In this document: positions 21,618-63,581 of the stretch, one piece after another
Layout of the letters: each line of letters opens with the position of its first letter
Numbering within the stretch: position 1 is the first letter of the stretch
Source: Devosia sp. A16
Lineage (GTDB): Bacteria > Pseudomonadota > Alphaproteobacteria > Rhizobiales > Devosiaceae
Direction of reading: 5' to 3'
Assembly (NCBI RefSeq): GCF_001402915.1
Contig: NZ_CP012945.1
Location: forward strand, 1,651,501 to 1,715,500
Length of the DNA stretch: 64,000 nucleotides
The notes under the pieces: model-generated
The model's database searches: none
The model's input: the letters and a program-made list of their open reading frames with translations, nothing else
Told to the model about the DNA's origin: nothing
Program-made: the position numbers and the translations under genes

Positions 21618-24047
21618 TCAGAACTCCGCCCAGTCCCTGTCGATCGCCGCGTTGCCCTGGCTCAGATAGGAGCTGGCGGCCTGCTTCACGCGCTCCTGCA
21701 ACCCCCTGATGCCACGAGCCGGCGGCGGCGTGACCTCGACGGCCCGGGTCGGCGCGCCGCCCGAGATGGTGAAGATATCGACGATCCGGTCGAGTTCGTT
21801 CACCTGTCCGTCGGTCTGCTCGATCGCAGCGTTGGTCTGTTCGACCAGCGCCGCGTTGTGCTGGGTCATCTCGTCGAGCTGACGCACCGCGGTGTTGACC
21901 TCTTCGATCCCCGAGGCCTGCTCGCGGCTGTCGCGCGCGATGCCGTCCATCAGCAGGTTGCTCGAACGCGCCGCTTCCAGCATGGCGGCCAGCCGCCCCG
22001 CCGCGTCCGCCACCAGCTTCGAGCCCGTCTTCACCTCGGTGCCCGATTGCTCGATCAGCGCTTTCACTTCGCTCGACGCACTCGCCGCCGACTGCGCCAG
22101 CCGCCGCACTTCCACCGCGACCACCGCAAAGCCCTTGCCGGCGTCGCCGGCGCGTGCAGCTTCCACCGAGGCGTTGAGCGCGAGGAGGTTGGTCTGGAAG
22201 GCGATATCGTCGATCAGCCCGATGATGTTGGAGATCTTGGCCGAGGACTGGGTGATCCGCTCCATCGCCGCATTGGCCTCGCCCATCACCTGGCCGCCCT
22301 CTTCGGCGGTGCGGGTGACGGTGCTGGCGACTTCGCTGGCCTCGCGCGCCCGTTCGGCATTCTGCAGCACGGTCACCGCCAGCTGCTCCATCGCCGCCGA
22401 GGTCTCCTCGATGGTCGCCGCCTGCTTGGTGGTGCGCTCGGAAAGGTCGTTGGCGCCCGACAGGATCTCGCCTGTCGCCGTCTTCAACGAGCGCGAGGTC
22501 GCCTTGAGCTGGCCAACGATATGGCTCAGCTTGTCGCCCACTGCATTGGTGTCGTCGCGCAGCCGGGCGAAGGCGCCTTCATACTCGCCTTCCATGCGCT
22601 TGGTGAGGTTGGTATCGGCCAGCGCCGCCAGCACTTCGCCGGTTTCGCCCAGCCCGCGGTCGACGGTCGCCACCAGGTTGTTGATCGAACCGGCAATGGC
22701 ATTGAGCTCGGCATCGGGGAACTCGGTCTCCACCCGGCGGGAGAAGTCGCCGGCAACCGCCGCATCGACCACCTGGCCGAATGCCTTCTGCAGCTCGGCC
22801 ATCATCGCTGTGCGGGCCTCCTGGTCGCGGATGATCCGCGCCGCTTCCGCTTCGGTCATTTCGGCAACCTTGAGGCCGTTATCGCGGAACACCTCCACTG
22901 CCTTGGCCATGTCGCCGATCTCGTCGCGGCGGGCGTGATAGGGCACCTCGACCTGGTAGTCGCCATCGACGAGCTTGCGCATCACGCCGGTCATCCGGCT
23001 CACCGGCTTGGCGATCGAACTGCCGAGCAGGAAGAAGGCCACGAGGCCCAGCGCAAAGACCACCAACCCACCGGCGATCAGCGTGTTGCGCTCGTTGACG
23101 GCGGCAGCGAGCAACGTCGCCTCAGGCACCGCGACCATCACCGTCCACTCGATGCCGAACTGCGGCAAGGGCAGGTTGGTGGCGGTGAGCCGCCACTGCT
23201 GGCCTTCGACCGGCACGCTGGCGTGGTAGTCGCCGGCCTTGGCGCCGCCCACCGCGGCGAGCCCGGCGGCGTCATTGGCAGGCTGGCCGATCAGCGCCGG
23301 ATCCGGCGGCACCACCCAGTTGCCTTCGGCATTGATGATCCCGACCCAGCCGGTCCCGAGCGGACGATCCTGGCCGATCAGCTGCGCGAACACGCCGCCA
23401 TTGTAGTCGACACCGACCAGGCCCACCGCCTTGCCCGCCTGGTCGCGAACCACCGAGGTGCTCGAGGTGTAGAGCATCTTGTCATAGAGGTAGGGGCCGA
23501 CCAGAGACGGCGAGCCCTTGGCGAGCGGATCGAGGAACCAGTTCTGGAAGCCGCTCTCCATCGACAGGTCGAGCGCTCCCCAGCTGATCGCGCCGGTCTT
23601 CACGTCGCGAGTGATGCTCGGGCCGAAGAAGTTGGCCGGCAGCGCGAACTGCGATGCCATCAGCTCCGGATTGCTCGCCGTCGGTGCGTCGGCGGTGAGC
23701 AGCGACCAGATGCCGACGGCGTTGGGCACGATACCGATCTGGCGTTCGAACATGTCCTTGTAGGTGGCCGCCGTGACCCCCGGCGCCGACATCACCGAGG
23801 TCATCGTCTGGGCAATCGAGTCGGCGACCGCCGAGTGCTCCTTGAGCACCACTTCGATCCGCGCTGCCTCGGTCTGGGCGAGGCTGCTCAGCAGCTCGTC
23901 GGCAGTGGCTACGGCGCGCTCGCTGGCCGAGTTGACGACATAGAACAAGGCGCCGGCGATCGCCGCGGTGAAGACCGCTGCCGCGGCAAGGACGATTTTG
24001 CCCCGAAGCCTGAGCGTCGGAAGCCTGGGAGTAGATTTGGCCGGCAT
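21618..24047 (-). CDS. Methyl-accepting chemotaxis protein with dCache-like sensor and DWAEF tail
   Basis: An 809-residue receptor. Membrane helix 1 is about residues 16-38; the periplasmic sensor of about 280 residues ([23 protein letters not shown] is dCache-like) runs to helix 2 at about 321-343. HAMP follows ([22 protein letters not shown]), then a second HAMP-like helical repeat and the signalling hairpin with [20 protein letters not shown]. The chain ends DWAEF, resembling the CheR/CheB-docking pentapeptide of E. coli receptors (NWETF). ATG 24047 is preferred, with AGAAGGAT upstream. The ligand is unknown. It is close kin of the next receptor. Confidence 0.93.
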
Positions 24048-24161
24048 GGAGAGGTCGTTATCCTTCTGGAGTGTCGACAGGCTGAAATGCGTTCTGCGTC
24101 CATCCACGACCTGATCATGACGGCGTTAACATCGCGTCAAGTCGTGGCGTAGCCGACAGTC

Positions 24162-24213: not shown

Positions 24214-26727
24214 CTAGAACTCGGCCCAATCCTTGTCGATCGCCGCGCTGCCCTGGCTGAGATACGACCTGGCGGCGTTGCGCACCTGCTCCTGCAGGGC
24301 GCGCACGCTCTTCGTCGGCGCCTCGGTGGCCCGCAGCGGCGGCGCCGCCGCCTCGGTGCGGAACACCTCGACGATATGGTCGAGCTCGGTGGCCTGCGCC
24401 TCGGTCTGCTCGATCGCTGCATTGGTCTGTTCCACCAGCGCCGCGTTGTGCTGGGTCATCTCGTCCATGGTGCGCACCGCGGCGTTCACCTCCTCGATCG
24501 CCGACGCCTGTTCCTGGCTGGCCCGGGCGATCGAATCCATCAGCTCGTTCGACGAGCGCGCCGCCACCAGCATGGCCTCGAGCTTGGCTGCGGCTTCCGC
24601 CACCAGCTTCGAGCCGCCCTTCACCTCGCTGCCCGATTGCTCGATCAGCGCCTTCACCTCGCTGGAGGCCCCGGCCGCCGACTGCGCCAGTCGCCGCACT
24701 TCCACCGCCACGACCGCAAAGCCCTTCCCGGCATCGCCGGCGCGGGCCGCTTCCACCGACGCGTTCAGCGCCAGGAGGTTGGTCTGGAACGCAATGTCGT
24801 CGATCATCCCGATGATGTTGGAGATCTTGCCCGACGAGTGGGTGATCCGCTCCATCGCTGCGGTCGCCTGCTGCATCACCTGCCCGCCTTCCTCGGCGGT
24901 GCGGGTCACCGTCGCCGCGACGTTCGAGGCATCCTTGGCGCGCTCGGCATTGGCCAGTACCGTGCCGGACAATTGCTCCATCGCCGCCGAAGTCTCCTCG
25001 ATCGTCGCCGCCTGCTTGGTAGTGCGTTCGCTGAGATCGTTGGCGCCCGACAGAATCTCGCCCGTCGCCGTCTTCAGCGACCGCGAAGTGCCCTTGAGCT
25101 GTCCGACGATCTCGACCAACCGCTCGGCCACCGCATTGGTGTCGTCCTTGAGCCGTGCGAACGCACCGCCATACTGGCCGCCGACGCGCTGCGTCAGATC
25201 GGTCTGCGCCAGCGCGGACAGCACGGCGCCGGTTTCGCCCAATCCGCGATCCACGGTTTCGACCAGTTGGTTGACCCCGCGGGCCAGCGCGTTCAGCTCC
25301 GGATCCGGAAACTGCGCGCCGACGCGCCGCGAGAAGTCGCCCGCAATCGCCGCATCGACAACCGCGCCGAACGCCTGCTGCAGCTCCTGCATCATCTCGG
25401 TGCGCTCGACCCGGCGCTGCGTCGCAGCCAGCCGCTCGTCTTCAGTCATCTCGTTGACCTTGAGGGCGTTCTCCTTGAACACCTGCACGGCCTTGGCCAT
25501 GTCGCCGATCTCGTCCTTGCGGCCGGCGCCCTGCACCTCGGTGTCGAGTTTTCCCTCCGCCAGCGCCGCCATCGTCTCGGTCAACCGGCCAATCGGCCGC
25601 GAGATGCTGCGCGAGAACAGCAGGCCCGCGACGGCCGCCAGCGCCAGCAGCCCGATGCCGATCAGCAGCATGGTATTGCGCAACTGCGCCACCGGGGCGA
25701 ACGCTTCGTCCTCGCTCATCGTGGTGACCATGGCCCAGGTCGTCCCGTTGAACGTCACCGGCATCGCGTTGGCGATCATCCGAAGGCCGCGATAATCCGT
25801 GGTGACGCCTGTGCCGGTGTTTCGGGCCAGCGCCGCGTCGACCACCGGGTTGTCGTAGGCGGTGGTCAGCGTATCGTCGCCATCCGAGAAGACCGAATCC
25901 GAGCGCAGCAGCTTGTCCGCCCCGACATAGAAGCTCTCGCCGGTCTGGCCGAGCTGGCTGTTGTCCTGCAGCATCTGGTTGATCGGGGCGACCGGCATCT
26001 GGATCGCCATCACCCCCATCAGCTTGCCGCGCACATCGAGCATCGGAGTGGCGATGAAGCTCGCCGGCGCGCCGGCAATGGTGTAGACCGCGGCATCCTC
26101 ATAGGCCACTTGTCCGCGCTCGGTCAGCGCCACCGCCTTGCGGAACACCCGGCCCAGCCCGCTGTCGGCGAGATCGCTGCCTTCGGCGAAGTTGGCGGCG
26201 AAATCGTCGTTCTTCATCACCGAATAGACCAGGTTGCCGGCCGGATCGAGGATGTAGAGGTCGCGGTAGCCGCGCATCTCCAGTTGCCGCCGGAACGTCG
26301 CCTGCACCTTGTCATGCGTGGTGTCGTAGTTGGTACGACCCCGGTCGTTGATGTCGAGCAACTGCCGCTCGCCGGCCGGGTGCGGGTTGTTGGTGATGAA
26401 CGCCTCGCGCAGCACCACCACCGGGTCAGCCGGCGGCGTCGCCTTGGCGAAGTTCCGCCACGCAATGGCGAAATCCCGCGCCGCATTCACCGCGCTGTCG
26501 GTGGCCGCGCTGTTCACCAGGTCGGCTTCGATGGTCTTGAGATAGGTGGTGAACTTGTCGGCATGGGCGGATGCGACGGTCTGCATCTGCCTGGCGCTCA
26601 TCTCGGCAACGATCGCCGAACCGACGAAATAGCTTCCGAGGCCTACGCCCAGGCTGACCACCAGCGCCGAGCCCACCATCGCCAATGGCAGTTTCTGCGC
26701 AATCCTGAATTTCGGAAGCCAACCCAT
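24214..26727 (-). CDS. Methyl-accepting chemotaxis protein with Cache-type sensor and DWAEF tail
   Basis: An 837-residue receptor. Membrane helix 1 is about residues 12-36, followed by a large periplasmic sensor (DLYILDPAGNLVYSVMKNDDFAANF and GVMAIQMPVAPINQML are Cache/sCache-like). Helix 2 (NTMLLIGIGLLALAAVAGLLF), HAMP (SRSISRPIGRLTETMAALAEGKLDTEV), a second HAMP-like segment, and a signalling hairpin nearly the same as that of the neighbouring receptor follow. It ends DKDWAEF, the adaptation-enzyme docking tail. The start MGWLPKFRIA at 26727 is preceded by GGGGGAAAG. The sensor differs from its neighbour, so a recent duplication of only the cytoplasmic half, or sensor swapping, is suggested. 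Confidence 0.93.
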   Translation of the reverse strand: MGWLPKFRIAQKLPLAMVGSALVVSLGVGLGSYFVGSAIVAEMSARQMQTVASAHADKFTTYLKTIEADLVNSAATDSAVNAARDFAIAWRNFAKATPPADPVVVLREAFITNNPHPAGERQLLDINDRGRTNYDTTHDKVQATFRRQLEMRGYRDLYILDPAGNLVYSVMKNDDFAANFAEGSDLADSGLGRVFRKAVALTERGQVAYEDAAVYTIAGAPASFIATPMLDVRGKLMGVMAIQMPVAPINQMLQDNSQLGQTGESFYVGADKLLRSDSVFSDGDDTLTTAYDNPVVDAALARNTGTGVTTDYRGLRMIANAMPVTFNGTTWAMVTTMSEDEAFAPVAQLRNTMLLIGIGLLALAAVAGLLFSRSISRPIGRLTETMAALAEGKLDTEVQGAGRKDEIGDMAKAVQVFKENALKVNEMTEDERLAATQRRVERTEMMQELQQAFGAVVDAAIAGDFSRRVGAQFPDPELNALARGVNQLVETVDRGLGETGAVLSALAQTDLTQRVGGQYGGAFARLKDDTNAVAERLVEIVGQLKGTSRSLKTATGEILSGANDLSERTTKQAATIEETSAAMEQLSGTVLANAERAKDASNVAATVTRTAEEGGQVMQQATAAMERITHSSGKISNIIGMIDDIAFQTNLLALNASVEAARAGDAGKGFAVVAVEVRRLAQSAAGASSEVKALIEQSGSEVKGGSKLVAEAAAKLEAMLVAARSSNELMDSIARASQEQASAIEEVNAAVRTMDEMTQHNAALVEQTNAAIEQTEAQATELDHIVEVFRTEAAAPPLRATEAPTKSVRALQEQVRNAARSYLSQGSAAIDKDWAEF

Positions 26728-27022
26728 GCCCAACTTTCCCCCTCGACAATCGACCTCGTCATGGGGGAGCAGCAATTCTGCCGCAGCGAGACGGAAGCAT
26801 CCTGCTTCCGCTGTTCACGCCAACCTCATCCCCCGAGGCCCGTGTACAACGGCAGGAAGACTAGGGACGTCGCCTTAATTTAGGATTACGGGCTGATGCT
26901 TAGTTCGGCCAGTATTTTCGGCCGACCGTCAGCAGCCGGCCGCCCGGCGTACCAGCGCTGCGACAGGTCCTTGCCCGGCGAAGGACTGCCCGTCGGAACG
27001 GCCACTCGCGGCAAAATGACAA

Positions 27023-27067: not shown

Positions 27068-27457
27068 TTAGGACAACACCCCGATCACCGCCTCGATCCG
27101 CTTCTTCATGGTCGAGGCGTCGAACGGCTTGATGATGTAGTTGTTGACGCCCGAGGAGATCGCTTCCTTCACCTGCTCCTTGTCGGAGCGGCCGGTGGCC
27201 ATGATGAACGGCATGGCCTGCGTCTTGGGGTGCTTGCGGATGACGCGCAGCAGCGTCAGCCCGTCGATATCGTCCATGTTCCAGTCGGAGATGATCAGGT
27301 CGACACTGCTCTTTTCGAGCTTGCCGAGCGCATCGCGTCCCGACTTGGCTTCGACGATGTTGGTGAATCCCAGCTGGGTAAGGATGTATTTGCAGATGCC
27401 CCGCATCGACTGCTGGTCATCGACAATCATCACACTGACTGCACTTGCCTTCGGCAT
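27068..27457 (-). CDS. cheY: CheY-type single-domain response regulator
   Basis: A 129-residue receiver domain. The acidic pair is D13-D14, the phospho-acceptor is D58 (IISDWNMDD), the conserved Thr is in MATGRSD, and the Lys is in IIKPFD. The KYILTQLGF helix and the FDASTMKKRIEAVIG end are CheY-like. It is followed by a hairpin terminator and preceded by cheB with about 100 bases between, so it may have its own promoter. Rhizobial species carry several CheY proteins. Whether this one is the motor-binding form or a phosphate sink cannot be told from this sequence. Confidence 0.93.
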   Translation of the reverse strand: MPKASAVSVMIVDDQQSMRGICKYILTQLGFTNIVEAKSGRDALGKLEKSSVDLIISDWNMDDIDGLTLLRVIRKHPKTQAMPFIMATGRSDKEQVKEAISSGVNNYIIKPFDASTMKKRIEAVIGVLS

Positions 27458-27555: not shown

Positions 27556-28602
27556 TTATGCTGCGGATTTGAGCCGGGTGAGCGCCGCCGCCAGCCGCGC
27601 CGCGATGGCTTCGACCGGCGCCTGCTCGATCACCGCGCCCTCTTCGAACGCCACCCGCGGCATGCCGTAGACCAGCGCCGAGGCTTGGCTCTGGCCCACG
27701 GTGTAGGCGCCTGCCTCCCGCATCAGCTTCAGTCCGCGCGCCCCGTCGCGGCCCATGCCGGTAAGGATGGCCCCGACCGCCATCGACCCCACGGTCTTGG
27801 CCACCGACTCGAACAGCACGTCGACGCTCGGCCGGTGCCCGGACGTCAGCTCGTCCTGCGTCACCCGGCATTTGAGCTGACCGGAACTGCGCTCGACGCG
27901 CAGATGGAAATCGCCGCGCGCCACATAGGCGTGGCCGGCGAGCAGCGGCATGCGATCCTCGGCCTCCACCACAGTGAGCTCGGTCAGCTCGTCGAGCCGA
28001 CCGGCAAAGCGACCGGTGAAGCCCGCCGGCATGTGCTGCGCGACGACGATCGGCGGACAGTCGGGCGGCATCTGGCTCAGCACCACGCGGATCGCCTCGA
28101 CTCCCCCCGTCGAAGCGCCGATGGCGATCAGCGCGCCGCTCGGCGCCGCCGCGGTGCGCACCGGCACATTGGCCGTCGGCGCCTTCATGGCGCGCCCTTT
28201 CACGTCGGAGTTGGCCGCCGCCCGCACCTTCTGCCGCAGGTTTTCGCCGAACGCCTCGAGCCCGCCCGACAGCGTCGCGTTGGGCTTGGCGACGAAATCC
28301 ACGGCGCCCAGTTCCAGCGCCAGCAGCGTCTCGCTCGCGCCCTTGGTGGTCAGCGTCGAGACCATCACCACCGGCAGCGGATGGAGCCGCATCAGCTTGT
28401 CGAGAAACTGCAGCCCGTTCATGTTGGGCATCTCGATATCGAGGGTCAGCACATCGGGATTGAGCTCCTTGACCTTGGAGCGCGCTTCGATCGGATCCTC
28501 GGCGGTGCCGACGACGATGATGTCGCCGTCCTTGCCCAGCGTGCGGCTCAGCACCTCGCGAATGAGTGCGGAATCATCGACGACCAGCACCTTGATGCTC
28601 AT
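27556..28602 (-). CDS. cheB: Chemotaxis protein-glutamate methylesterase/deamidase
   Basis: A 348-residue response regulator that removes methyl groups from receptor glutamates. It has a receiver domain with D55 in LTLDIEMPNMNG. The catalytic triad falls at S164 (IGASTGG), H190 (VAQHMPAGF) and D286 (TGMGRDGARG), the same positions as in E. coli CheB. Its ATG overlaps the cheR stop as ATGA, so the opposing methyltransferase and methylesterase are translated together. Confidence 0.97.
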   Translation of the reverse strand: MSIKVLVVDDSALIREVLSRTLGKDGDIIVVGTAEDPIEARSKVKELNPDVLTLDIEMPNMNGLQFLDKLMRLHPLPVVMVSTLTTKGASETLLALELGAVDFVAKPNATLSGGLEAFGENLRQKVRAAANSDVKGRAMKAPTANVPVRTAAAPSGALIAIGASTGGVEAIRVVLSQMPPDCPPIVVAQHMPAGFTGRFAGRLDELTELTVVEAEDRMPLLAGHAYVARGDFHLRVERSSGQLKCRVTQDELTSGHRPSVDVLFESVAKTVGSMAVGAILTGMGRDGARGLKLMREAGAYTVGQSQASALVYGMPRVAFEEGAVIEQAPVEAIAARLAAALTRLKSAA

Positions 28603-29462
28603 GCTGCGTCCCTTGTTTTGTGCTGTGCGCGCGCCTGATAGATGGTCTTGCCGACCAGCCGGAAGCTGGCGCCCCCGGCGCCGAGATTTTCCGAGTGCCC
28701 GATATAGAGGAAGCCATCCGGCACGAGGATCGCCCCCAGCCGCGCGAACAGCTCGCCTTGCGTCTGCTTGTCGAAGTAGATGGCGACGTTGCGGCAGAAC
28801 ACCGCGTCGAACGGCCCCTTCATCGGCCAGGGGTTGTTCATCAGATTGAGCGGCTTGAAGGCGACGAGTTCGCGCGCCGCCATCGGGATCTGCACCTGCC
28901 CCGCCCCGGCGCGCTCGAACAGCGACGCCCGCTGGCGCGACAGCCCGTTGAGCTCGACCTCGGGATAGACGCCGCCTGCCGCCTTGGCCACCACGCTGGT
29001 GTCGATATCGGTGGCCAGGATACGGAAATCCCAGCGCTTCAGTTCCGGGAAGGCCGAGAGCAGGCTCAGCGCGATGGTATAGGGCTCCTGCCCTGTCGAG
29101 CAGCCGGCGGACCAGATGCGCAACTTCGGCCGCCCATTCGCCCCCATCCGCGGCCGCTGCGCCATCAGCTGACGCACATAGTTCTCGAGATGCTCGAAGT
29201 GGTGGTCCTCGCGCCAGAACCGGGTAAGGTTGGTGGTCAGCGCGTTGATGAAGTCCTGCGCATCGACCGGCGTGCCCTGGCGCTCAAGATAATCGAGATA
29301 GGCGTCGAACGAGCTCAGCCGCAGCGCGCGAACGAGCTTGCCCAACCGCGACACCACCAGGGTGCGCTTGGCCTCCGACAACGAAATTCCGGCCTGTTGA
29401 TAGACGCGCGCCTTGACCCGATTGAACTCGCGGTCACTGAGGGCAAATTCGCCCTGATCCAT
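28599..29462 (-). CDS. cheR: Chemotaxis protein methyltransferase
   Basis: A 287-residue SAM-dependent enzyme that methylates receptor glutamates. The N-terminal helical domain (LSDREFNRVKARVYQQAGISLSEAKRTLVVSRLGKLVR) is followed by the Rossmann domain with TRFWRE, IWSAGCSTGQEPYTIAL, ILATDIDTSVV and VFCRNVAIYFD. The start MDQGEFALSD at 29462 has a GGGGG site upstream; a 44-residue extension into the receptor-like gene is rejected. It lies 22 bases after that gene and overlaps cheB. Confidence 0.96.
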   Translation of the reverse strand: MDQGEFALSDREFNRVKARVYQQAGISLSEAKRTLVVSRLGKLVRALRLSSFDAYLDYLERQGTPVDAQDFINALTTNLTRFWREDHHFEHLENYVRQLMAQRPRMGANGRPKLRIWSAGCSTGQEPYTIALSLLSAFPELKRWDFRILATDIDTSVVAKAAGGVYPEVELNGLSRQRASLFERAGAGQVQIPMAARELVAFKPLNLMNNPWPMKGPFDAVFCRNVAIYFDKQTQGELFARLGAILVPDGFLYIGHSENLGAGGASFRLVGKTIYQARAQHKTRDAA

Positions 29463-29484
29463 ATCGCCCCCTGCTGGGCCCCTT

Positions 29485-30996
29485 CTAGGCCCGCTTGCGC
29501 GCCGGCAGTTGCAGGGCTTTCGCCGCTTCCGAACCGACGGCAGCCACGCTGCCGTCCAGCCGGGCGATGGCGCCGCTGCCCTCATCCAGTGCACCGGCGA
29601 TCATGTCCGTCTCATTGCTTAGATTCTCTAAATGTCCGCCGAGGCCGGAGAGAATCTTTTTGAGCGATGCCGCTTCCTCGATCGAAGCGCTGGCCTCGCG
29701 TCGCGAGGTGCCGACCAGCGCCTTGATCTCGCGTGCCGCCTTCTGCGTCGCCTGCGCCAGGGTGCGCACTTCGGCCGCCACCACCGCGAAGCCGGCGCCC
29801 TTCTCGCCGGCGCGCGCCGCCTCCACCGCGGCGTTGAGCGCCAACAGGTTCGTGCGGAAGCTCACATCCTCGATGCTCGACACCATGCGGTCGATCTCCG
29901 CCGCGGTGCTTTGCACTCCGCCGACCGAAGCGCTGGTGCGCTGCACCGCGAGCGCCGCGTCGGCCGCCAGCGCCACCGCCTGCCGCTCCAGGATCCGCAC
30001 CGCCTGCGCCTTGGCGCGACCTTTCTCGATAGCGCTCGAGGCAACCGTGAGTCCGGCCCGGCTCTGGTCTGCGAGTTCGGCAAGGCTGGTGACACTCGCC
30101 CGGTAGCGGTCGATGGCGCGGAGGATCGCCTCCATCTTGGCTTCGAGATGCGCCCGCGCCATGAGCGCTTCCTCGCGTTCGATCAGGATGGCTTTGAGAT
30201 CCTGTTCGAACTGCCTCAGTTCGGGCGCCAGCGCCCCGGCGCCCATCAGCAGCAGTGCGTCCACCGGTTCGCCGCGCAACAGCTGGCCGATTGCCTTCAC
30301 CGATCTGTCGAACTGCTCGAGCGCACCGCCCAGCGCCTTCAGCGCCGGCGAATGCTGCATGCCCCAGTCGTCGAAGCGGAAGCCGGTGCGGCCGTTGGCG
30401 AGCGCGGTGACGAAGGCGTCGAGATCGTCGTCGGCGATGTGATAGCCCGCCGGGGTGAACTCGATGATCGAACGCCCGCCGCCCAGCTCGCGCCGTTCAG
30501 CCACATAGCGGCGGTCGCCGACGGTAACGATGCTCTCCTCGGCCATGTCGTCGAGCAGCACCCTGCCGCCCAGCACGTCGGAAATCAGCCCACCTTCCTC
30601 GGCCTTCGGCTCGGCCAGCACGAGACCGTTGCTGACCCCGAGGATCTCGCCATCGCCATCGACCAGCGCGGCCGGCTGCCTGAGGCTGCCGAATGCCGCC
30701 TTGAAATTGTAGGCCCGGTCGAGCCGGCTGCAGAGGCTCTGCACAATGGCTTCGAGACTGCTGGCCTCACCGGCCCGCACGCCCACCGCCTCGGCGATCG
30801 TGCTCAGCCGGCTCGAGAAGGCCCGGTCGGCGCGCCGTGCAACCATGATCGACCCAGTCGCCGCGGCGACTGCGGCGAGCAGCGCCACCAGCGCGCTCCA
30901 CAGTCCCACCCCGAGCAGCAGCACACCACCACCCGCAAGCAGCAGCGCGGCAAGCCAGCATAGATTAGCGATGAGCGCCATGCGCAAGCGCCGCAC
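29485..30996 (-). CDS. Receptor-like protein with two membrane helices and MCP signalling domain, no HAMP
   Basis: A 503-residue protein. Two hydrophobic segments (about 7-25 and 28-46) form a hairpin with almost no periplasmic loop. A PAS-like region follows (about 95-190; [32 protein letters not shown]). The MCP-type coiled coil has the tip [42 protein letters not shown] see neither HAMP nor a DWAEF tail (it ends LQLPARKRA). It may sense a cytoplasmic or membrane signal and feed CheR/CheB, whose genes follow after 22 bases. The start may be the GTG at 30996 or the ATG at 30981. Confidence 0.8.
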
Positions 30997-31261: not shown

Positions 31262-31858
31262 TCAGAACAGTTCGACGTCGTCGACCACCGGCTTGCTCAG
31301 CACGCTGCGGCGGCTCGCCGCCACGGCCAGTTCCTCTCTCGCGATCGAGGCGTTGGCGGCATTGTCGAGCCGCTTGACGAAGGCCCGGCCGGAATAGGGC
31401 TTGAACATCACCCGGCGGGCATAGGTGCCGCCGAGATCTTCCTTGCTCATCTGGTAGCCCTCGTCGGCGAGGAACTCGCGTACGAACTCGATGTTCTTGA
31501 GTCCGATATCGTCGAGCGCGCCGTTGATCTTGCCGCCGCCGAACACCTTGATCTCGAGGTTGGCCTTGCGGCCGGTGCCGCGGCTCAGCACCTTGTTGAT
31601 CAATTGTTCCATGGCGAACGCCCCGTAGCGCGCCGAGGCGCCGTAGCGATCTGCCGCCGAGGCCGACTGCTCGGCCAACAGGAAGTGGTTCATGCCGCCG
31701 ACATTGGCGACCCGGTCTCGTATGCAGGCCGAGATGCAGCTGCCGAGCACGGTCGAAAAAGTCAGGTCCACTTCGTTCGACACCAGGCAATCACCCTGGT
31801 GAACGGTCGTCACCACACCACGATCGAACTCGGGCGGCAGTGAACTCGACATGACCAT
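31262..31858 (-). CDS. cheD: Chemoreceptor glutamine deamidase
   Basis: A 198-residue protein that deamidates receptor glutamines. The catalytic Cys is C41 in TVLGSCISACIRD and the His is H58 in GGMNHFLL; GRKANLEIKVFGGGKI and LGGTYARRVMFKPYSG are further CheD features. The C-terminus extends about 30 residues past the core and ends VDDVELF. The start may be M1 or M3. A repeat separates it from the receptor-like gene upstream in the cluster, and it is divergent from the frameshifted gene at 32020. Confidence 0.95.
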   Translation of the reverse strand: MVMSSSLPPEFDRGVVTTVHQGDCLVSNEVDLTFSTVLGSCISACIRDRVANVGGMNHFLLAEQSASAADRYGASARYGAFAMEQLINKVLSRGTGRKANLEIKVFGGGKINGALDDIGLKNIEFVREFLADEGYQMSKEDLGGTYARRVMFKPYSGRAFVKRLDNAANASIAREELAVAASRRSVLSKPVVDDVELF

Positions 31859-32019
31859 GGTAACCGTTGGACCCGATAGGCTTCCATGTCATCGTTACCG
31901 GCAATTCCTTAGTGAAGCGCTAACCAAGAGCCTCGGGTCCGGCTGACGGCCCTCCGTTCGCAAGGAGCCATTCAGGATTCCGCGCTAGTGTGCGACGGCA
32001 TTACGGGGGTTTCGTCTAC

Positions 32020-32372
32020 ATGTCTCTGCAAAGGCTCGCCCGCGAGCTCGATGAAACGGCGCGCCAGACCGCCGGCATGGTCGAAGGCGTGACGCAGGCC
32101 CTCGAACTGCTCGCCGACACCTCCCTCGCTGCCGACGAGGCCCGTCGCCAGGCCGCCCGCATCATCGTCAACGCCCTGCAGGGCCAGGACCGGATCGAGC
32201 AACGCTGCCAGAACATGGCGCTCGCCGTCCGCCAGTTCGCCCTCCTGCCACCCGACGCCCCCCGGCCGTTTACGACGAGATCTGGTCGAGCCTGGTGCTC
32301 GACGAGTTACGCGTCCCCGCCTTGTCGGGCAGCGCGAGTTTTGGCGTGCATGGCGAAGCCGAGCTGTTCTGA
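32020..32372 (+). pseudogene. Frameshifted small helical protein with a DxxxQ motif (CheT-like candidate)
   Basis: The open frame from ATG 32020 (GGGGG ribosome site) encodes a helical protein, MSLQRLARELDETARQTAG onward, with GQDRIEQRCQN at about residues 54-64. It loses protein character after a run of six C at 32258-32263. Shifting the frame back by one base there gives a good-looking end (VYDEIWSSLVLDEL ... GEAELF, stop at 32372) and a 117-residue product. DxxxQ is the CheZ phosphatase motif and has also been described for CheT of Sinorhizobium meliloti, a protein of similar size encoded beside cheD. Loss of one C by mutation or by sequencing error, or a slippery site, could each explain the break. 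Confidence 0.55.
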
Positions 32373-32398
32373 GGACGGCGCCTGGGCTGACTGATGGA

Positions 32399-32521
32399 GA
32401 CGGCCCCCTCCCGGCCTCCCCCATAAAGGGGGAGGTGAAGAGTGAGGCTTTGTCTTCGATTGTGCCAAACCCACCGGCGGGGCACCTCCCCCTTCATGGG
32501 GGAGTATGGGAGGGGGCCGTC
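32399..32521. repeat. GA/CT-rich palindromic repeat, copy 4
   Basis: Ends in a perfect 14-base inverted repeat (GACGGCCCCCTCCC and GGGAGGGGGCCGTC), with a second inner pair CCTCCCCCAT/ATGGGGGAG. The same type as copies 6, 9 and 11. Its edge is 15 bases from the kynU stop. Confidence 0.9.
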
Positions 32522-37484: not shown

Positions 37485-37609
37485 GACGGCCCCCTCCCAT
37501 CCTCCCCCATGAAGGGGGAGGTGCCGCATCGAGTGCTTGGCACGATCTCGACCAAGCACCGGCCCTTCTTCACCTCCCCCTTCATGGGGGAGGCCGGGAG
37601 GGGGCCGTC
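37485..37609. repeat. GA/CT-rich palindromic repeat, copy 6, inside the sugar operon
   Basis: Perfect 14-base end repeat (GACGGCCCCCTCCC and its complement) with an inner CCTCCCCCATGAAGGGGGAGG hairpin split around the centre. It lies between the binding protein and permease genes, 20 bases past the stop of the former. Confidence 0.9.
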
Positions 37610-41190: not shown

Positions 41191-41249
41191 GTGGGTGTGG
41201 CTGTGGCGTCCCCCATGTCTGGCTGGATCCCGCCAAATACACTGAGCGG

Positions 41250-41381
41250 CACCTCCCCCCTTGTGGGGGAGGCTGGGAGGGGGGTGGCCACAAACACCGG
41301 CAGGTGAAAAGGCGCCACGACACTTCTAACATTGGGCGTGCGGCCCCACCCCTCCCGGCCTCCCCCATCAAGGGGGAGGTG
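41250..41381. repeat. GA/CT-rich palindromic repeat, copy 8
   Basis: CACCTCCCCCCTTGTGGGGG ... GGGGTGGCC on the left and GGCCCCACCCC ... CCCATCAAGGGGGAGGTG on the right. It lies between the orphan ATPase terminator and the end of the phnE gene that is convergent with it. Confidence 0.85.
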
Positions 41382-41432
41382 TAGGGCGGTGGGTTGAGCA
41401 GGATTGTGCCCAGAACAGGCACGCCGCCCGAC

Positions 41433-47347: not shown

Positions 47348-47472
47348 GACGGCCCCCTCCCGGCCTCCCCCATGAAGGGGGAGGTGAAGAAGAGCCGGTG
47401 CTTAGGCACGATCGTGCCAGATACTCGATGCGGCACCTCCCCCTTCATGGGGGAGGATGGGAGGGGGCCGTC
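47348..47472. repeat. GA/CT-rich palindromic repeat, copy 9, between phnK and phnL
   Basis: Has the GACGGCCCCCTCCC/GGGAGGGGGCCGTC ends of copies 4, 6 and 11. It fills most of the space between two genes that are normally adjacent in phn operons. Confidence 0.9.
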
Positions 47473-52526: not shown

Positions 52527-52649
52527 GACGGCCCCCTCCCATCCTCCCCCATAAAGGGGGAGGTGCCCGCCGGTTTACTAGGCACGATCGAAGACAGAGC
52601 CTCGACTCTTCACCTCCCCCTTTATGGGGGAGGCCGGGAGGGGGCCGTC
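52527..52649. repeat. GA/CT-rich palindromic repeat, copy 11
   Basis: GACGGCCCCCTCCC/GGGAGGGGGCCGTC ends, as in copies 4, 6 and 9. It lies between the stops of the convergent phnF and oxidoreductase genes, where a bidirectional stem-loop could end both transcripts. Confidence 0.9.
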
Positions 52650-63526: not shown

Positions 63527-63581
63527 GGCCATCTACTACAACACGGCCAAAGATGCCGCGGACGTAAGGGGGAGCGAAACA

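Follow-up and report, generated by a model that had tools for sequence, protein, structure and literature searches.

The stretch at 32020-32372 on the plus strand of Devosia sp. A16 holds a CheT-like gene, which begins with an ATG at 32020 and loses its frame at a run of C. Its product is probably the Devosiaceae form of CheT, a phosphatase of phosphorylated CheY (CheY~P) with a docking tail, and the copy as sequenced should not work. Signal termination in bacteria without CheZ is only partly understood, and CheT itself has reportedly been characterised only recently, in one rhizobium. The window referred to below is the whole stretch of DNA analysed, 64,000 nucleotides in length.

The gene and its conservation in Devosiaceae

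The first frame, 32020..32262 (+), encodes the N-terminal helix and the DxxxQ helix. It is protein-like up to the run of six C at 32258..32263 (+), the site of frame loss, just as the original prediction had read it. Left unshifted, the frame from ATG 32020 continues to a stop at 32394 and gives 124 residues. The second frame, 32259..32372 (+), reads PPAVYDEIWSSLVLDELRVPALSGSASFGVHGEAELF and then meets a stop at 32372; it supplies the last predicted helix with W89, then LDEL, a flexible linker, the tail and the stop. An open frame would need one base more or two fewer, and reading through both frames gives a protein of 117 residues. The proposal that a one-base shift restores a good ending agrees with the relatives, which encode about 117 residues in one frame; most intact homologues have 117 codons, and among the 29 and the 80 homologues examined none ends in the unshifted frame. 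The motif D57-R-I-E-Q61 (GQDRIEQ, numbered in the repaired protein and placed in an alignment of 78 sequences) lies at 32188..32202 (+) and is of the CheZ/CheT type, the catalytic residues of CheZ being an Asp and a Gln. The C-terminal tail, EAELF at 32355..32369 (+), follows the family pattern [DEQ]x[DE][LF]F.

A search with the read-through protein covered 61 genomes, 37 from Devosiaceae and 24 from other families of the order. It found matches in 33 of the 61, comprising 33 of the 37 Devosiaceae (including the genome under study, which matches in two pieces) and none of the 24 others. The matches in 31 of the 32 relatives extend over at least residues 2-116 and in one (G021) over 1-71, and no relative's match in this search has an internal stop. 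The Devosiaceae genomes without a match are G013, G014, G020 and G026. In G013, cheD is present with only 105 bases upstream and the locus seems to be cut by the contig end, so the CheT-like gene cannot be judged there; G014, G020 and G026 gave no CheD match, and two of these three are 82% and 60% complete.

The loci of named genomes tell the same story. They were the best 80 of 96 relatives, 64 labelled Devosia or Pelagibacterium and 16 labelled otherwise, and overlap in genomes with the set of 61 (L004 and L055, for example). All 80 have an ATG-started, unbroken CheT-like frame with cheD on the opposite strand, 74-287 bases upstream. The DxxxQ motif that the original prediction had seen in the N-terminal part is present in all 80 as well, in 79 by pattern and in L097, which has R before the D, by eye. 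The pattern [DEQ]x[DE][LF]F describes the C-terminal five residues at 79 of these 80 loci, the exception being L060, whose frame continues ten codons beyond the usual stop. Aligning 78 sequences, of which 70 come from the 80 named loci and eight from the genome searches, shows that the invariant positions include Q54, D57, R58, I59, Q61, R62, E96, L97 and F117, with W89 nearly so. Conservation in 33 of 37 family genomes and at 80 of 80 loci rules out a chance open reading frame; the CheT-like frame is a real gene. Two of the loci are unusual in other respects. The Devosia-type pair of cheD and CheT-like gene in L075 lies on a 3.9-kb contig that is labelled Thermomicrobiaceae and was probably mis-binned. 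In L097 (Devosia sp. A8/3-2, a complete genome) the CheT-like gene is unbroken but the neighbouring cheD has lost its frame, possibly through a sequencing error or as a second case of decay in this locus.

Four homologues searched against Pfam and NCBIfam matched no family above its curated cut-off. The sub-threshold hits (such as DUF982, DUF7553, WXG100_2, MCPsignal and an NCBIfam hypothetical family at E 0.001) mostly differ between homologues, look like helical noise and were set aside. Of the genomes without a match in the 61-genome search, 25 were searched again with a profile; seven gave matches, none below E 0.07. Across the order, 24 of 397 genomes matched the profile, 21 of the 24 in Devosiaceae; G204 is a member outside the family, and the matches in G243 and G092 turned out to be receptor modules.

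Nature of the frame break

The break is private to the genome under study, all 80 of the other loci (best 80 of 96 relatives) being unbroken. Compared with the nearest relative, codons 1-79 show 13 silent and 4 replacement base changes, and codons 84-116, behind the break, 11 silent and no replacement differences. Selection has therefore acted on the latter part until very recently, if it does not act still, and the break is either a very young mutation or an error of sequencing. Rather likely, it arose in sequencing or assembly and the strain's own gene is intact: the site is a homopolymer, replacement differences are missing behind it and the frame is unbroken everywhere else. However, a genuine mutation of very recent date would leave the same picture, and the other indels of the window do not suggest a generally faulty assembly. 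Both close relatives align to 34,481 bases of the window (counting BLAST pieces of at least 500 bases and at least 84% identity), and within these bases 15 indels not divisible by three separate the window from both. The C-run indel is the only one of them placeable inside conserved coding sequence by open reading frame positions, with the indel at 63579 not placed; the others, 63579 aside, lie between genes or near starts. As none of the other 14 can be placed in conserved coding sequence, errors of this sort are uncommon in the assembly. The break is thus a sequencing error or a very recent mutation, two events that look alike here.

A run of C at the junction of two frames that are both under constraint in relatives could also be thought of as a slippery, programmed frameshift site from which both products are made. 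This idea is extremely improbable and was rejected, as the relatives (29 and 80 examined) encode the protein in a single frame. If the sequence is taken as it stands, the break in the C run would remove W89, LDEL, the last helix and the tail, so that the product should be inactive or unstable and hence non-functional.

The che locus and the genome-wide che inventory

The neighbouring gene had been called cheD, and a match to PF03975 (E 1e-24) at 31262..31858 on the minus strand bears this out; it is divergent from the CheT-like gene. Further along the minus strand are a receptor-like protein with an MCPsignal domain (29485..30996, Pfam), situated between cheR and cheD, then cheR (28599..29465, Pfam, start chosen by hand), cheB (27556..28602, Pfam) and a CheY (27068..27457, PF00072), which is one candidate substrate. 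Neither QFQDxxxQ nor an ELF tail was seen by eye in the translation of the receptor-like protein. Two larger receptors lie beyond the che genes, at 24217-26775 (Pfam) and at 21618-24107 (named by eye).

The window had been said to lack cheZ, and at the sensitivity of the Pfam model this can be extended to the whole genome. PF04344 finds no match in this genome, nor in any of the 19 genomes of the genus, this one included. It does match in 6 of 37 Devosiaceae genomes, and the same six also carry the CheT-like gene. CheA domains occur at two further places in the genome. At one of them, near 2.175 Mb (L253:1489-2139, L246), STAS_2, CheY, CheA and CheW genes stand in a row, the STAS_2 protein having 96 residues (Pfam) and the CheY 119 residues, with CheW named by eye. 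For Agrobacterium, a review lists CheS, two CheYs, CheD and CheT (PMC12654446). The parts found here resemble a rhizobial che operon that in Devosia is split over two places, and the genome has what is expected of a CheT host: a CheS-like protein, more than one CheY and no CheZ match. In G204, a STAS protein, cheD and the CheT-like gene lie within a few kilobases, with CheY and CheA recognised by eye.

Comparison of upstream regions revealed a palindrome between cheD and the CheT-like gene, TTAG-N7-CTAAC at 31909..31924. It recurs as TTA[GT]-N7-CTAAC, at a distance of 101-127 bases upstream of the start, in 78 of the 81 regions compared, the window included, and we take it to resemble a CtrA box. 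When up to one mismatch is allowed, 5 of the 81 regions contain the strict TTAA-N7-TTAA. Genome-wide, the palindrome with up to one mismatch has 14 matches versus 41 in the reversed control, which is no excess, and therefore no regulon can be claimed. A scan for sigma-70 promoters and terminators found none. The window also contains GGGGGAGGTG-type repeats (32428-32443, 37514-37580, 41244-41387, 47377-47443 and 52605-52620), some in facing pairs between genes; there are 13 matches in the window versus 0.8 expected, one of them inside the CheT-like gene.

Probable kinship with rhizobial CheT and receptor modules

The suggestion that the protein might be CheT-like is supported, with the kinship running through intermediate profiles. 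The rhizobial CheT query came from the rhizobium-type genome G058, where it was identified as CheT by its position between cheD and fliF; it matches 39 of the 61 genomes. Thirty rhizobial CheT loci were fetched, and 26 of them form set A2, four having been omitted as identical or nearly so. Direct comparison of the Devosiaceae and A2 profiles is not significant (E 0.019 and probability 2.4%; E 0.036 in a second comparison), and the alignment is in register over both motif and tail. The proteins known as CheT in S. meliloti and as atu0522 in Agrobacterium share with the Devosiaceae protein the DxxxQ in a predicted helical hairpin, a length of about 120-130 residues and the cheD neighbour, as well as an acidic-hydrophobic tail (DFDFF in the position-defined CheT set) and a host with a CheS-like protein, several CheYs and no CheZ match. 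However, the rhizobial gene follows cheD whereas the Devosiaceae gene is divergent from it, and the motifs differ, QGIDLAVQK in the rhizobial set against LQxQDRIxQR in Devosiaceae, where R58 is invariant and the rhizobial proteins have L at the same place.

A wider sample of 38 cheD loci from other Alphaproteobacteria (36 fetched, with L043 and L049 added) provided the intermediates. The Devosiaceae profile picks out two kinds of protein in these loci: cytoplasmic receptor-like proteins, which are the more frequent, and small DxxxQ proteins. Its best matches outside Devosiaceae are the stand-alone protein of G204 and the C-terminal QFQDxxxQ modules of the receptor-like proteins. The search of the repaired protein against che-locus proteins called for in the original prediction thus shows, in profile comparisons, that it resembles other proteins of such loci. 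In the alignments with receptor modules, LQGQDRIEQ falls on [LM]QFQDRxxQ; the L.L.E[MLV]R stretch and the kind of tail are shared as well. In the receptor-like proteins the module is preceded by a receptor signalling domain, whereas the Devosiaceae protein stands alone.

One receptor set (rec) had been chosen by motif and tail, and reliance was placed instead on rec2, 11 receptor-like proteins chosen by their signalling hairpin only and not by motif, of which all 11 have the tail and nine the motif. The last 170 residues of rec2 match 77 Devosiaceae rows with a probability of 93% and E 2.7e-7, and when the last ten residues are cut the values are 82.5% and E 9.8e-6; reversed decoys gave 0.32 and 0.28, respectively. 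From rec2 the chain leads to five rhizobial-side CheT-like proteins (82.7%, E 9.5e-6) and from these to A2 (97.9%, E 4.1e-13), the last link being partly circular because two of the five, L212 and L218, were first picked with the rhizobial profile; L229, L223 and L221 were first found by place and motif. Reversed decoys for the three links gave 0.32, 0.2 and 0.51. Three Devosiaceae-side small proteins also match the five rhizobial-side ones (89%, E 2.2e-6). Three comparisons that skip links are not significant: receptor modules with A2 (E 0.49), Devosiaceae with the five rhizobial-side proteins (E 0.031) and A2 with the three Devosiaceae-side proteins (E 0.26). Some values were left out as circular, since candsB contains rows that the Devosiaceae profile had itself retrieved and L049 belongs to both sets of one comparison. 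The kinship with CheT through intermediate profiles is, in sum, supported but indirect.

Receptors with QFQDxxxQ and an IELF-type tail were seen in L197, L198, L201, L202, L208, L210, L211, L213, L214 and L222. The receptor-like protein at L199:6098-8185, about 700 residues long, seemingly has two tandem signalling hairpins; QFQDRNSQ follows the first of these, and the protein ends in IELF. The QFQDxxxQ receptors may carry a CheY phosphatase of their own.

The shared C-terminal tail

The ending of the repaired protein had been said to recall the VDDVELF of CheD, and this likeness is real and general across CheD and CheT-like proteins. A pattern search of the genome for D[IV]ELF followed by a stop gave a single match, the DVELF at the end of CheD (31265..31279, minus strand), and no other tail bearer. 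In Devosiaceae, CheD ends in [DE]IE[LM]F at 79 of 80 loci (best 80 of 96), the exception being L097 with its broken cheD. Among 37 wider cheD loci, a script using a permissive pattern recovered 32 CheD frames, 31 of them with the tail at the end or a few residues from it; in the CheD of L222, MELF lies eight residues inside the end. Of the five loci missed by the script, L200, L227 and L220 (four residues inside) have the tail, L205 has a CheD without it (ending EYEIFKQV) and L225 has no CheD frame. Altogether, the tail lies within the last 14 residues in 35 of 36 wider CheD proteins. Rhizobial CheT ends in DFDFF at 30 of 30 loci.

Receptors fall into two kinds. Of 37 stop-ended receptor frames caught by the hairpin pattern, 16 end in an IELF-type tail and 21 otherwise, and 18 of these 21 have a [DEG]WxxF tail. 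QFQDxxxQ occurs in 13 of the 16 with an IELF-type tail versus none of the 21 others, for which Fisher's exact p of 1.6e-7 is overstated because related loci are not independent. CheD, CheT-like proteins and QFQDxxxQ receptors share a tail of approximately [DE][IV][ED]LF, unlike the DWxxF of ordinary receptors. Among the papers listed by the literature searches, no title or abstract opening names this tail. We tentatively propose that Alphaproteobacteria have, beside DWxxF, a second C-terminal address peptide of this form, which would dock CheD, CheT-like proteins and QFQDxxxQ receptors on one partner, so that receptor modification and CheY~P removal would take place at the same site; CheT would then be the phosphatase module that elsewhere is built into the receptor. 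Such an arrangement is plausible, though somewhat less likely than not.

Predicted structure and comparison with CheZ

A two-helix hairpin had been anticipated, and a helical hairpin is indeed predicted for the intact homologue of Devosia sp. 66-14, which is 97% identical to the read-through protein. Its model has helices at 2-32, 38-53, 56-74 and 82-91 with a mean pLDDT of 82, and residues 104-117 are of low confidence. The rhizobial CheT model has helices at 16-35, 37-45, 47-51, 53-81 and 91-108 with a mean pLDDT of 73. Structure searches with Foldseek and VIA-align gave no match at E<=0.001, and generic helical hairpins were among the matches listed, as they were for the rhizobial model; CheZ is absent among the matches listed, which says nothing either way on a CheZ fold. 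A sequence search of solved structures with set A3 returned seven weak matches (best E 0.0034), which were rejected; they include designed coiled coils, Mediator subunit 10, a fragment of a spike protein and a protein with an ACT domain.

The CheT-like protein might be regarded as a shortened CheZ, given the QDxxxQ that it shares with the CheZ active site. The receptor modules, too, weakly resemble CheZ around the motif (E 4.3e-4 with motif-selected rows; E 0.002 and probability 14% with rows not so selected). However, PF04344 matches neither the four homologues nor anything in this genome, its model has 203 positions against 117 residues, and the comparison of the Devosiaceae and CheZ profiles is not significant (E 0.094). 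The CheZ motif is given as AXXFQ-DXXXQ, with the Asp and Gln called catalytic (PMC7750401); in the Devosiaceae proteins, Q and DXXXQ are present and the F is replaced by G, A, W, S or M. Taken together, the profile comparisons are no more than suggestive of kinship with CheZ, and descent by shortening is very unlikely. None of the Pfam models for CheC, CheX and FliY matched among the four homologues.

Putative function

The preferred reading is that of a CheT-type phosphatase. A small cytoplasmic helical hairpin, presumably dimeric, would insert Asp57 and Gln61 into the active site of phosphorylated CheY. By analogy with CheZ and CheT, D57/Q61 would act on the phosphorylated Asp and speed the loss of phosphate; the substrate would be the CheY of the che locus or the CheY beside CheA. 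The flexible tail [DEQ]x[DE][LF]F closely resembles the CheD tail and would tether the protein to a common chemotaxis partner. According to a review, S. meliloti CheT has a DXXXQ motif, acts as a phosphatase on one of two CheYs and forms a complex with CheR (PMC12654446). Because of this complex, CheR is the first candidate partner.

The same complex, together with the conservation of the C-terminal part (invariant E96, L97 and F117, nearly invariant W89), would also suit a protein that is no enzyme but an adaptor, linking the signalling array with CheR or CheD and using DxxxQ for CheY~P binding only. This is unlikely, since D57 and Q61 are invariant and correspond to the catalytic pair of CheZ and since CheT is reported to dephosphorylate one CheY (PMC12654446).

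Read as a CheT-type phosphatase, the protein extends this class to Devosiaceae, through a family whose four searched homologues have no curated Pfam or NCBIfam match. The shared tail ties CheT-type proteins to CheD and to the C-terminal modules of receptors, and it gives a direct, testable prediction of their binding partners.
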